Part shown: positions 4,944 to 56,319 of the stretch, in pieces
How the letters are laid out: each line of letters opens with the position of its first letter
How positions within the stretch are numbered: position 1 is the stretch's first letter
Origin: Flavobacteriales bacterium
GTDB lineage: Bacteria; Bacteroidota; Bacteroidia; Flavobacteriales; Flavobacteriaceae
Reading direction: 5' to 3'
Assembly: GCA_027066995.1 (NCBI GenBank)
Contig: JAMOMQ010000005.1
Location: 1-57,423, forward strand
Length of the DNA: 57,423 bases
Translations under genes and position numbers: made by a program
The notes under the pieces: model-generated
Database searches by the model: none
Seen by the model: the letters and a program-made list of their open reading frames with translations, nothing else
Told to the model about the DNA's origin: nothing

Positions 4944-4972
4944 AAAGCCATGGCCTTTGCTGTGGCTTTTTT
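4944..4972 (+). terminator. Terminator of the S8 protease gene
   Basis: AAAGCCA pairs with TGGCTTT, and the stem can extend inward with wobble pairs. The 3' arm runs into a T-tract. It lies about 60 bases past the stop at 4881. Confidence 0.7.
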
Positions 4973-5126
4973 ATACCAAATTCATTTATAGAATAGTCCA
5001 AGATGTTTTGGACTGAATCAAGGAGAACAACGCAGTTGTAGCCGTATCTACGAGCAAGTATTTTCGATGCGGAGTAAGTGATAAAGAAACGAAATATTGG
5101 TTTAATTTATATTTGTATTTGGTATT
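4971..5126. repeat. Palindromic MITE-like repeat, copy 1
   Basis: This element shares an 85-base core (5016-5100) with the copy at 11433-11606, with about ten differences. The left end (TATACCAAATTCATTTATA) and the right end (reverse complement near 5097-5126) are imperfect inverted repeats, about 22 of 30 positions alike. A sub-terminal hairpin AGTCCAA / TTGGACT lies at 4995-5014. It fills the space between the convergent protease and endonuclease genes. Its right end overlaps the final codons of the endonuclease gene. No reading frame of a transposase is present. Confidence 0.65.
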
Positions 5127-6061
5127 AGCAAGGCATATACGGGAAAATGATCACTATATCCGGCTTGGTAATGTCGTCCCCGGTAAGTTCTAAAAGGTTG
5201 GTTTTTATGTTTGCCTTGCCATACTTTTAAAAATGACGGTTTAAAAATATGAAAACTGTCAAAGGATAAACCTTGATCTAAAAAATTACGACTAAACATA
5301 ATTTGATCAAATAAATGCCACTGTTTCTGATGATTAAGACTACCTTGGTTATTTTGATATATATTTAGTGCCGGATTAAAAAAGCGTTTGTTAAACATTA
5401 TTAAATGCGCATCGTCGGGGTCGGTATTAAAATCGCCCATTAAGACAAATTTGGCTTCAGGCTGTTCGTAGTAAATATAATCCACTATTTCATTGAGTTT
5501 TTCAGCAGCACGGTATCGTTTATAATCCGATTCAAAATCTCCTTCGCGTCGCGACGGCCAATGGTTAATAATTATATGAATCGTTTCTCCAAACAGTTTG
5601 GTTTTGACATATAAAATATCGCGGGTGTTGTAAGCTTCACCTGCATCATTATACAGTGTAAGCGGATAAACTTTTGATTGTAATATTTGCACCAAATCTT
5701 TACGGTATAGCAAGGCCACATCCATACCGCGACGGTCTGCCGATTCAAAATGAACATAACCATAAGGTAGTTTTTTTAACGGTTTGCGTTTGATGATGTT
5801 TTTAATAACCCGTTTGTTTTCCACTTCGGCCAGACCTATTAAGACCGGGGACAGACCGGTTTCAGCCAGCCCTATTTGACTGATGGCAAAAGCTATTTTT
5901 TTAGACTTGTTTTCAAAACGTTTTTTGACCCAATGCATAAAACCTTTAGGTGTAAACGGGTCGTCGGCCGTATTGGGGTCATCATACGTATCAAAGAAGT
6001 TTTCCAAATTATAAAAAGCAATGCTAATTTTATCTATACCGGTTAAATCCATAAAAATCAT
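5102..6061 (-). CDS. Endonuclease/exonuclease/phosphatase family protein
   Basis: 319 residues without a signal peptide, so probably cytoplasmic. The motifs follow the family order: SIAFYNLENFFD near the N-terminus, LIGLAEVEN with the metal-binding Glu, GMDVALLYR, INHWPSRREG with the catalytic His, MGDFNTDPDD with the Asp/Asn pair, and YSDHFPVYA with the terminal Asp-His. This is the DNase I / exonuclease III metallohydrolase fold acting on phosphodiesters or phosphomonoesters; the substrate is unknown. Translation may start at residue 1 or at Met4 (6052). The gene diverges from gmk. The last seven residues (IPNTNIN) and the stop codon are encoded by the end of a palindromic repeat, so the original C-terminus may have been different. 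Confidence 0.85.
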   Translation of the reverse strand: MIFMDLTGIDKISIAFYNLENFFDTYDDPNTADDPFTPKGFMHWVKKRFENKSKKIAFAISQIGLAETGLSPVLIGLAEVENKRVIKNIIKRKPLKKLPYGYVHFESADRRGMDVALLYRKDLVQILQSKVYPLTLYNDAGEAYNTRDILYVKTKLFGETIHIIINHWPSRREGDFESDYKRYRAAEKLNEIVDYIYYEQPEAKFVLMGDFNTDPDDAHLIMFNKRFFNPALNIYQNNQGSLNHQKQWHLFDQIMFSRNFLDQGLSFDSFHIFKPSFLKVWQGKHKNQPFRTYRGRHYQAGYSDHFPVYALLIPNTNIN

Positions 6062-11366: not shown

Positions 11367-11412
11367 ATTGCAAAATTACAACATTATCCTGTATGATGGT
11401 TAATATTAAAAA

Positions 11413-11714
11413 AAGCTGTCTCAAAAGTATCTTTTATAATACCAAATCGATTTATAAAATAGTCCAAAATATTTTGGACTATTTTTTGCTTAATCAAGGA
11501 GAAAAACGCAGTAGTAGCGTAGCTACAGACAAGTATTTTCGACGCTGAGTAAGTGAAAAAGAAACGAAATATTGGACTATTTTGTATGTCGTTTTGATAT
11601 AATACATTAACAAAAAGCATTAATTGTTAAGTTATTGATTGTCAAGCAAAAGATTTTCCATTCCGTAAAAACGGGATTCAAAATGACAGAAAATTTCACC
11701 TTTTGAGACAGCTT
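11413..11714 (-). terminator. Terminator-like inverted repeat with a long loop, downstream of the TonB receptor
   Basis: The arms 11700-11714 (CTTTTGAGACAGCTT) and 11413-11427 (AAGCTGTCTCAAAAG) are perfect 15-base complements. On the minus strand the second arm is followed by a run of T residues, as in an intrinsic terminator for the receptor transcript. The arms are separated by about 270 bases, which include a complete palindromic repeat (11433-11606). The simplest reading is a normal terminator whose loop was enlarged by insertion. An alternative is a composite element with 15-bp ends. Confidence 0.5.
11433..11606. repeat. Palindromic MITE-like repeat, copy 2 (most complete)
   Basis: The outer 28 bases at each end (11433-11460 and 11579-11606) are inverted repeats matching at 21 of 28 positions. 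Similarity continues inward through the TTGGACTATTTT segment, giving ends of about 40 bases. Inside the left end, 11456-11485 is a perfect 30-base palindrome centred on AAAATATTTT. The core at 11492-11575 matches copy 1. No protein is encoded. The structure fits a non-autonomous mobile or REP-like element. Together with its flanks it fills the 389-base gap between rlmB and the receptor gene. Confidence 0.7.
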
Positions 11715-11755
11715 CTTTGTTATTACAGAATCTGACAATGGGATTTATTGTCTTT

Positions 11756-54960: not shown

Positions 54961-56319
54961 TTATTTTACCAAGTTAATTTCAACACGTCTGTTTTTAGCA
55001 CGTCCGGCTCTGGTTCTGTTAGATGCAATAGGTTTGGTTTCACCATAACCTTTGGCATTTAATTTAGATTTAACACCGTGTTCTTTTAAGTAGTTAACAA
55101 CTGCTTCTGCTCTTTTTTGAGATAAAGCCATGTTAAATTTGGCGCTACCAACACTGTCTGTATGACCTTCAACATCAAATTCGGCAGTAGGATATTGAAT
55201 TAATATTTCAACTACTTTATTTAAAGTTTCGATAGTTTTAGGTTTGAAAGAAGCTTTTCCTGAGTCAAAGTAAATAACTTTGGCATAGTCATTCAATTGT
55301 TTTTGAACTTCTTTAGTAACTTCGGGGCAGCCTTGGTTAGCTACAGGGCCGGCTACTTCGGGACATTTATCATCTTTATCCAACACACCGTCTTTGTCAG
55401 TATCAGGGTAAGGGCAACCTTGGTTAGCCACAGGACCTGCAACTTGAGGACAATTATCTTTAGCATCGGTTACACCGTCGCCGTCAGCATCGGGGCATCC
55501 GTTTAAGGCTGCAACACCGGCTACATCGGGGCAAGCATCTTTAGAGTCGATAATGCCGTCGCCATCAGTATCGGGGCAACCGTTAAACTCAACTTTACCG
55601 GCTACATCGGGACAAGCATCTTTAGAGTCGATGATACCGTCGCCGTCGCTATCGGGACAACCGTTAAACTCAGGCAAACCTTTTACGGTAGGACAAGCAT
55701 CGTCTTTGTCAAAAATGCCGTCGCCGTCAGTGTCAACACCACCGAATTTTACGGCAATACCAACACCATGTTGGAAATAGGGTGCTACATTTACATCAAA
55801 AGTATGATGATAAGCAGACTCAACATAAAAACCGATATTGTCATTAAACCAATACTCTAAACCTAAACCGGCGTTTAAGTTACCACCGTCTTGTTTATCA
55901 AGCCAAGTGTAACCGCCACCGGCAAAAATATAAGGTTGTAAGCTTTTATCTTCTTTGCAGATGCTGTATTTAACATCTAAATTAGGATTGATAAATGATA
56001 AACCGGTATTGGTTTCATTATCACCCATTTGGGTAATTTTGTTTAATTTAATTGAGCCTATGAGGCTGAATTTATTACCTAAATAATGACCGACTCTAAT
56101 GTCAGAAATGGCATAAGCCGCATTGTAGTGGTCAAAATTGAAGTAATCTTTAAACAATTGATCGCTGGCAAAGCCAAAGTCGCTTTGCTGTCCTGTGGGA
56201 TAAAAATCCACAGCATTCAATCCAACTTTTACCAACCATGGATTGTTCTTGTCTTGAGCATTTAATGTAACAGTGGCAAGCACTATTACTGCTAATAATA
56301 ATTGATTTAATCTTTTCAT
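54961..56319 (-). CDS. OmpA-family protein with thrombospondin type 3 repeats
   Basis: 452 residues. Signal peptide of about 21 residues ([16 protein letters not shown]). Residues of about 25-190 form a beta-barrel-like N-terminal region ([19 protein letters not shown] pattern, seen as [13 protein letters not shown]). Then come five Asp-rich repeats such as [15 protein letters not shown] and [15 protein letters not shown], the calcium-binding thrombospondin type 3 motif. The OmpA C-terminal domain ([46 protein letters not shown]) binds peptidoglycan. It is probably an abundant outer-membrane protein linking envelope and wall, with its own TATTTTTG box at 56349-56356. Confidence 0.93.

Follow-up and report, generated by a model that had tools for sequence, protein, structure and literature searches.

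What kind of sequence is repeated in two intergenic regions of a flavobacterial contig, and does it persist as a mobile element, as a structured RNA or as both? The window analysed here, i.e. the whole stretch of 57,423 nucleotides from Flavobacteriales bacterium (assembly GCA_027066995.1, contig JAMOMQ010000005.1), holds two copies of this repeat, which a first-pass annotation made from the sequence alone had described as MITE- or REP-like. The explanation that we favour, at a probability of roughly 0.75, is a MITE-like non-autonomous mobile element of about 160 bp, moved in trans by a DDE-type transposase and carrying a fold selected on one strand, probably as RNA.

The repeat and its copies in the genome

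The two copies, 11440-11599 (160 bp) and 4974-5124 (151 bp), share one orientation and are separated by 6.5 kb, and their exact ends fall within 7 bases of the earlier positions. Their parts are as follows:

4971..4973, TTA, target-site duplication on the left of copy 2
4974..5124, plus strand, copy 2, 151 bp (covariance model 91 bits; BLAST)
5125..5127, TTA, target-site duplication on the right of copy 2
11412..11715, MITE 'B', a second inverted-repeat element with ends AAAGCTGTCTCAAAAG / CTTTTGAGACAGCTTC, which received copy 1
11437..11439, TAA, target-site duplication on the left of copy 1
11440..11599, plus strand, full-length copy 1, TACC..GATA (BLAST family; covariance model 156 bits over model positions 1-160)
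11440..11476, plus strand, helix 1, left arm, a terminal inverted repeat that pairs with 11565-11599
11456..11485, perfect 30-base palindrome in the left half of copy 1
11482..11495, plus strand, 5' side of helix 2, pairing with 11547-11560 and covarying between lineages
11511..11530, plus strand, terminal hairpin region (limits approximate)
11547..11560, plus strand, 3' side of helix 2
11565..11599, plus strand, helix 1, right arm, the other terminal inverted repeat
11600..11602, TAA, target-site duplication on the right of copy 1

Overall, 131 of 163 alignment columns are identical between the copies, and copy 2 is without 10 bases on the 5' side of helix 2. For the core (11492-11575), annotated as 85 bases with about ten differences, we counted 77 identical columns out of 86 and 9 that differ, including 3 gaps. 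The inverted ends, put at 30-40 bases, form 36-nt arms that are 81% complementary, and the perfect 30-base palindrome is present as described. The statement that neither copy codes for protein was slightly too strong: it stands except for 23 bases of an ORF on the minus strand (5102-6061), whose last codons and stop (5102-5124) are supplied by the right end of copy 2. To this description we add the 3-base flanking duplications (TAA and TTA) and the nesting of copy 1 within 11412-11715.

The element is far from confined to the window. A BLAST search of its own genome (2.34 Mb in 187 contigs) with 11435-11604, in which the best 40 of 126 candidates were scored, returned 41 rows at E 2e-19 or better; as one copy is split by an insertion, these are 40 places, i.e. 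39 besides the query. A left-end pattern matched 37 times in the same genome, versus 0 for a backward control, and 19 of the 37 matches fall outside the BLAST list, giving at least 59 places, a figure that takes in decayed copies, short derivatives and the loci L055 and L056 and in which four of the 19 extra places (on C91, C101, C147 and C159) are counted by the pattern only. Loci were available for 30 of the 37 left ends: 15 are copies already known, and among the other 15 a right end lies nearby in 13, with none for L055 and L056 in the 330 bases inspected. The annotation had accepted two findings as fatal to its reading, namely that the genome held no further copies or that one duplication of the two neighbourhoods explained the similarity. 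The first is contradicted by the counts above. The second would fit the short distance and common orientation of the two copies, and we reject it as having next to no probability, given at least 59 places in the genome, duplications of TTA at one copy and TAA at the other, and differing flanks between which only the element is common.

Insertion sites, spread and recent activity

The element is short, carries no transposase gene, occurs in many copies and has imperfect terminal inverted repeats (TACCAA..). Among 73 copies from several species whose ends could be typed, a set outside which L061 and L074 fall because the motif failed to type their ends, the flanks agreed over 1, 2, 3, 4 and 5 bases in 4, 4, 42, 1 and 1 cases, respectively. 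With L114, the ortholog of L100, omitted, identical flanking 3-mers were found in 42 of 72 copies, compared to a mean of 24.1 and a maximum of 41 in 20,000 shuffles; both flanks were TWA in 48 of these copies, and 41 of the 48 were concordant. Copies found with the covariance model in other genera behaved alike, with identical 3-mers in 41 of 66, where shuffles gave a mean of 21.1 and at most 35, and concordance in 40 of 42 TWA pairs, one place (G292:C11; L210 = L073) being counted in both sets. The 3-base flanks were not identical in 15 of the 49 full-length copies, nor in 14 of the 19 short derivatives. Judging from these flanks, a 3-base TWA duplication arises on insertion of the element; the annotation had advised defining ends and target-site duplications, and both can now be given.

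Comparison of filled and empty sites pointed the same way. One site carries the element in G299 and G303 and is empty in seven aligned relatives. Once the element and 3 bases are taken out, the filled site aligns with G301 and G128 save for a one-base gap, while the other five relatives are 4-12 bases shorter; the right side of G000 is not alignable at this site, and the flanks of the filled copy are TTA/TTT. At the window site, the distance between aligned flanks is 109-119 bp in three relatives versus 376-398 in the window, a comparison of lengths in which the intergenic bases themselves do not align among relatives and from which the G309 ortholog, with its 1.65-kb gap of other content, was omitted. 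Moreover, removal of copy 1 and one TAA from MITE B leaves 141 bases that align with other B copies, with one extra base near the junction and with the two copies closest in length measuring 140. Target duplications, empty sites and the large number of copies bear out the annotation's proposal of a non-autonomous transposable element, and on this evidence the element is mobile.

How far it has spread was addressed at several scales. Among 299 genomes of the family searched by BLAST, 12 besides its own gave matches; in five of these 12 the elements are full-length (about 157-162 bases) and their flanks mostly TWA, and the rest are partial or chance-like. A covariance model built from 27 copies, the annotation having proposed such a model as well as a search of relatives, matched 101 of 397 sampled Flavobacteriaceae genomes and 80 of 237 genera at E <= 1e-4, with up to 7 candidates scored per genome, so that the true copy numbers may be higher. 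In other genera, each of the 67 copies typed has a length of 157-162 bases; full-length copies of the host's own genus that lack nested insertions measure 151-185 bp. A pattern scan of named genomes found the same element in a single record, the Flavobacteriaceae MAG NORP215, and a narrower pattern over the named genomes gave no record; one query each of plasmids and phages gave no match. The element is old and widespread in Flavobacteriaceae.

In at least one genome it has also been active recently. G177 (5.0 Mb, draft) contains 95 end matches versus 0 in the control, of which 65 belong to one subfamily, with one matching end per copy, and 30 to another, in which 12 copies have both ends and a further 6 ends are single. 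The 11 complete young copies of the first subfamily are 95.7-100% identical and all 11 bear perfect duplications; of six copies fetched from the second, five are identical and sit at five different sites. The two subfamilies differ in their cores and have common ends, TACGATTT.., unlike the TACC.. ends usual elsewhere, and L316 is a hybrid with one subfamily's body and the other's ends. That different cores have the same ends and L316 mixes body and ends suggests that the ends in G177 are matched to a resident transposase and the fold is kept for another reason.

Much of the above could also be produced by an ordinary MITE, an internal-deletion derivative of one insertion sequence whose fold is a by-product of long inverted repeats, template switching or conversion between the arms having preserved their complementarity. 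Such an origin accounts for the inverted ends, the duplications and the nesting, and also for the sharing of ends by the two G177 subfamilies, which is expected if the resident transposase sets them. The constant length of the 67 copies from other genera does not follow from it, and in the light of the fold described below we regard this account as unlikely. The preferred reading, a mobile element with a selected fold, is itself not free of tension here, since the retention of core and length across genera is unexpected for a classic MITE.

A hairpin that covaries and favours one strand

Most full-length copies examined fold into one long hairpin, which runs from the terminal arms past an asymmetric internal loop to helix 2 and on, via another internal loop and an A/T-rich helix 3, to the terminal hairpin. 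Copy 2 of the window folds weakly (z -2.35; 6 of 200 shuffles as good), L022, L023 and L065 have kept mainly the arms, and in L094, L097 and L098 of G309 an unrelated palindrome stands in place of the terminal hairpin.

The fold is supported by covariation. In the 27 copies, 91.3% of cells are paired and 38 of 63 pairs show two-sided change (168 cells), compared to 41.9-47.8% of cells, 14-22 pairs and 30-49 cells with slid partners, and 22.5 pairs and 63 cells with column shuffles. An alignment of 53 rows from other genera, fitted to the model and including one reverse-strand row (L209 +), has 87.1% of cells paired and two-sided change in 57 of 63 pairs (607 cells); slid partners gave 44.5-52.0%, 41-46 pairs and 163-185 cells, and column shuffles 42.5 pairs and 196 cells. 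RNAalifold derived its own structure of 55 pairs from these 53 rows, 49 of them with compensatory change. By helix, two-sided change in the 53 rows occurs in 33/33 pairs of helix 1, 14/14 of helix 2, 6/8 of helix 3 and 4/8 of helix 4; outside the host's own genus, support is weaker for helices 3 and 4 (78 and 80% of cells paired) than for helices 1 and 2, and pairing is rare there in parts of the terminal stem. In helix 2, for example, CTTAATC/GAGTAAG in one clade corresponds to CTGTATC/GATACAG in another. The unpaired stretches are largely conserved, with GAATTA opposite GAAAC. That the fold has been conserved across many genera while its letters changed suggests that the folded form itself is functional, and the annotation's alternative of a structured repeat thereby gains support alongside the transposable element. 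These observations also bear on the by-product account: full covariation of the terminal arms agrees with it, whereas helix 2 inside the element covaries just as completely (helices 3 and 4 less so), and conversion between arms should have erased the internal loops that persist.

No known RNA family was recognised. The window gave no Rfam 15 match at threshold, and 22 loci compared to Rfam 15 at E <= 10 gave 20 matches, none reaching the threshold of its family; the two that fall on an element proper, SQ2397 on L254 (19.8 of 100 bits) and aCoV-5UTR on L236 (16.1 of 70.3 bits), were taken as chance. A consensus scan of L063 and the window copy found no intrinsic terminator in the core.

We then compared the two strands in 94 copies, the number left from 116 after near-identical ones were dropped. 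The strand as read here folds better in 90 of the 94 (mean -47.7 versus -33.5 kcal/mol), and z scores below -2 relative to shuffles were obtained for 91 copies on this strand and 82 on the other. The bias holds for 31 of 35 genus copies found by BLAST and for 56 of 56 model-found copies, among which the covariance model itself may favour the read strand. When G-U pairs were forbidden, the gap between strands shrank from 10.1 to 2.1 kcal/mol in the genus copies and from 16.1 to 2.8 kcal/mol in the model-found ones, and the bias was left in 26 of 35 and 45 of 56 copies, respectively; the strand advantage comes largely from G-U pairs. In the aligned pairs, which were chosen from the read-strand fold and therefore lean the same way, 472 G-T cells stand against 109 A-C cells, with 563 and 249 in column shuffles, over 82 rows that contain a few places twice (L207/L094, L208/L077, L210/L073). 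Because G-U is tolerated better than A-C mismatches on this strand, the fold is probably selected mainly on one strand and in RNA form, although a folded single DNA strand may be the substrate of selection instead. Arm conversion gives no strand bias, which is a further point against a by-product. This conserved fold with its one-strand bias is the element's most interesting feature.

If the fold acts as RNA, it could serve the host's genes rather than the element, as a regulator or an mRNA stabiliser that happens to be repeated. Covariation and a one-strand fold agree with such a role. In tandem-gene contexts, copies of the host's own genus lie 14 with and 4 against the gene strand (p 0.03); in other genera the count is 6 with and 7 against, both counts coming from simple ORF calls in which 59 copies were classified and 6 skipped, copies with less than 450 bases of flank having been omitted beforehand. 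Orientation towards neighbouring genes is not consistent. The unrelated sites with fresh duplications, the patchy presence (101 of 397 genomes) and a genome in which two subfamilies have 65 and 30 end matches, respectively, likewise speak against a host RNA, which we hold to be improbable. Within the preferred reading of a mobile element, the putative folded transcript would most likely serve the element, since gene orientation is inconsistent, for instance by rendering insertions harmless via processing or insulation.

Transposases, known elements and nested repeats

Under the same reading, a DDE-type transposase encoded elsewhere would act in trans, cutting at the inverted ends and pasting the element at TWA. 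A 3-bp TWA (TWA/TNA) duplication is typical of IS5/IS1031 and PIF/Harbinger transposons and would point to a transposase of one of these groups. Mobility is shown by the sequences themselves, whereas what moves the element, its transcript and the fold's role are inferred. The annotation had also anticipated a transposase with matching ends, and here the outcome was negative: all 27 PF01609 matches in the host's own genus were scanned without convincing matching ends, and 15 PF13359 loci from 249 genomes showed no element ends, some loci being cut by contig ends. The ends of the examined loci do not match, and we discarded the PF01609 and PF13359 transposases at these loci as partners; an end pair at L162 with TCA/TCA flanks was not taken either, as only 12 of 20 end bases match over 2094 bp. 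The element occurs in five of eight PF13359 carriers (G033, G072, G122, G125, G177), in which it seemed enriched. Draft genomes often lack multi-copy insertion sequences, so the failure to find a partner is weak evidence.

Palindromic, intergenic and abundant, the element could also be taken for a REP/BIME sequence moved by a RAYT (Y1) transposase, the strict sense of 'REP-like'. Y1_Tnp matches occur in 7 of 13 genomes of the genus, including the carriers G299, G300, G303 and G308; none was found in G000, G305 and G309, all copy-rich. Moreover, the element has three-base duplications, and REP/BIME elements are not known to make a target duplication. On these grounds we dismissed the RAYT link, whose probability we see as very small, and with it this part of the first-pass label.

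A more unusual possibility, which we also rate as unlikely, is that what is recognised in spreading is the fold itself: the mobilising machinery would need a 160-nt hairpin of fixed form, made of RNA or of one DNA strand. If this were true, we would be dealing with a structure-dependent bacterial transposon, closer in spirit to a SINE or to the folded-hairpin site of integrons than to a MITE, whose terminal repeats are adapted anew to the transposase of each host, with length and fold unchanged.

As a rule, MITEs are recognised by their ends, and their range tends to be a single lineage. In the present family, length and a covarying hairpin have been kept over many Flavobacteriaceae genera while the end sequences changed. 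This makes it testable whether a stable hairpin is of any consequence to an ERIC-like element, and whether RNA or DNA is folded; the covariance model is ready for annotating the repeat, even where a copy supplies the last codons of a gene (5102-6061).

Porphyromonas gingivalis belongs to the same phylum as the present host. The accessible text on its MITEs (BrickBuilt, MITE239 etc.) gives ends shared with IS5-family elements for several of them, termini such as GAGACC.. or ACGTGAG.. that are unlike those found here, and for BrickBuilt variable-length duplications and an internal minisatellite, also unlike the present element (PMC4596501). Closer parallels come from the small mobile sequences, a class that, as far as the source's available part goes, comprises A+T-rich elements of <200 bp with terminal inverted repeats, target-site duplications and long stem-loop transcripts and includes ERIC, NEMIS and RUP (PMC2229807). 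The present element fits this class and adds a TWA duplication, a near-fixed length and family-wide covariation. According to the same partial source, ERIC/IRU/RU-1 of enterobacteria are likewise short (127 bp), non-autonomous and intergenic, with target-site duplications and a mover that is unknown, they occur in many enterobacteria, and their transcript folds as a long stem-loop, a likeness by description; ERIC has TA termini and 7-bp inverted repeats (PMC2229807), whereas here the duplication is TWA, the arms are imperfect and about 35 bases long, and the whole measures about 160 bp. Similarly, Correia/NEMIS elements of Neisseria (about 107 and 155 bp) form hairpins and have inverted repeats of about 24 bp and target-site duplications, and they differ from ours in host phylum and in their TA termini, ours being marked by covariation across many genera; RUP of Streptococcus pneumoniae is a 107-bp MITE in about a hundred copies with target-site duplications, for which IS630-Spn1 is the proposed partner, while in our case none was found in PF01609/PF13359 loci (PMC2229807, in its consulted sections). 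A survey of bacterial RNAs has a category of mobile or repeat candidates with a fold, which, in the portion available, resemble the element in being structured, present in dozens of copies per genome and inconsistent in gene orientation; its main text contains neither 'Flavobacter' nor 'Bacteroid', and no target duplication is given in that portion (PMC11109978). In Tenacibaculum maritimum, repeats make up 10.35%, and the accessible part of that paper does not describe the present element (PMC5561996). The portion of the open-licence full-text literature that we covered held no description that we recognised as this element. Its best reading is a new MITE-like family of the ERIC/NEMIS kind, set apart from these by their descriptions.

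Several other repeats accompany the element. MITE B (GAGGCTGTCTCAAAAG..CTTTTGAGACAGCCTC, about 118-141 bp without nested copies), the host of copy 1, replaces the inner palindrome in several element copies (L010, L013, L020, L024, L045, L116). A PF01609 locus in a relative (L165, 529-aa frame) has the same ends as MITE B, and another in the element's own genome (L078, 571-aa frame) has similar ones; both loci are presumably IS1182-like. In L026 (G000:C8), a third inverted-repeat element of about 245 bp (GGGCTTGCTGAAAAA..TTTTCAGCAAGCCC) lies inside an element copy with a TACAGTC duplication, and in L317 (G177:C51) the 3' half of a copy holds an inverted-repeat element, AACCCGCTTTATG.., itself with a GCATAGC hairpin. 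Many copies have a tiny palindrome of the CCCGAAGCTTCGGG type in their left arm, and others have it in the right arm, at roughly one position (L008, L009, L011, L014, L097, L098, L120, L122); this palindrome looks mobile itself.

Derivatives of 50-60 bp keep both ends (L048, L050, L051, L054 and L059 in G000; L129-L142 in G309); their flanks are often T-N-A on both sides with differing middle bases, and identical 3-base flanks were seen in 5 of 19 copies of the short class (<100 bp) versus 34 of 49 full-length copies. L143-L148 (G299, G303, G304, G305) form a related subfamily whose left end is similar and whose core is different; its right end, where seen, is degenerate. Lastly, the window contains three direct repeats with 81-base spacing at 55435-55734, inside an ORF on the minus strand (54961-56319), the second and third being 78% and 70% identical to the first.
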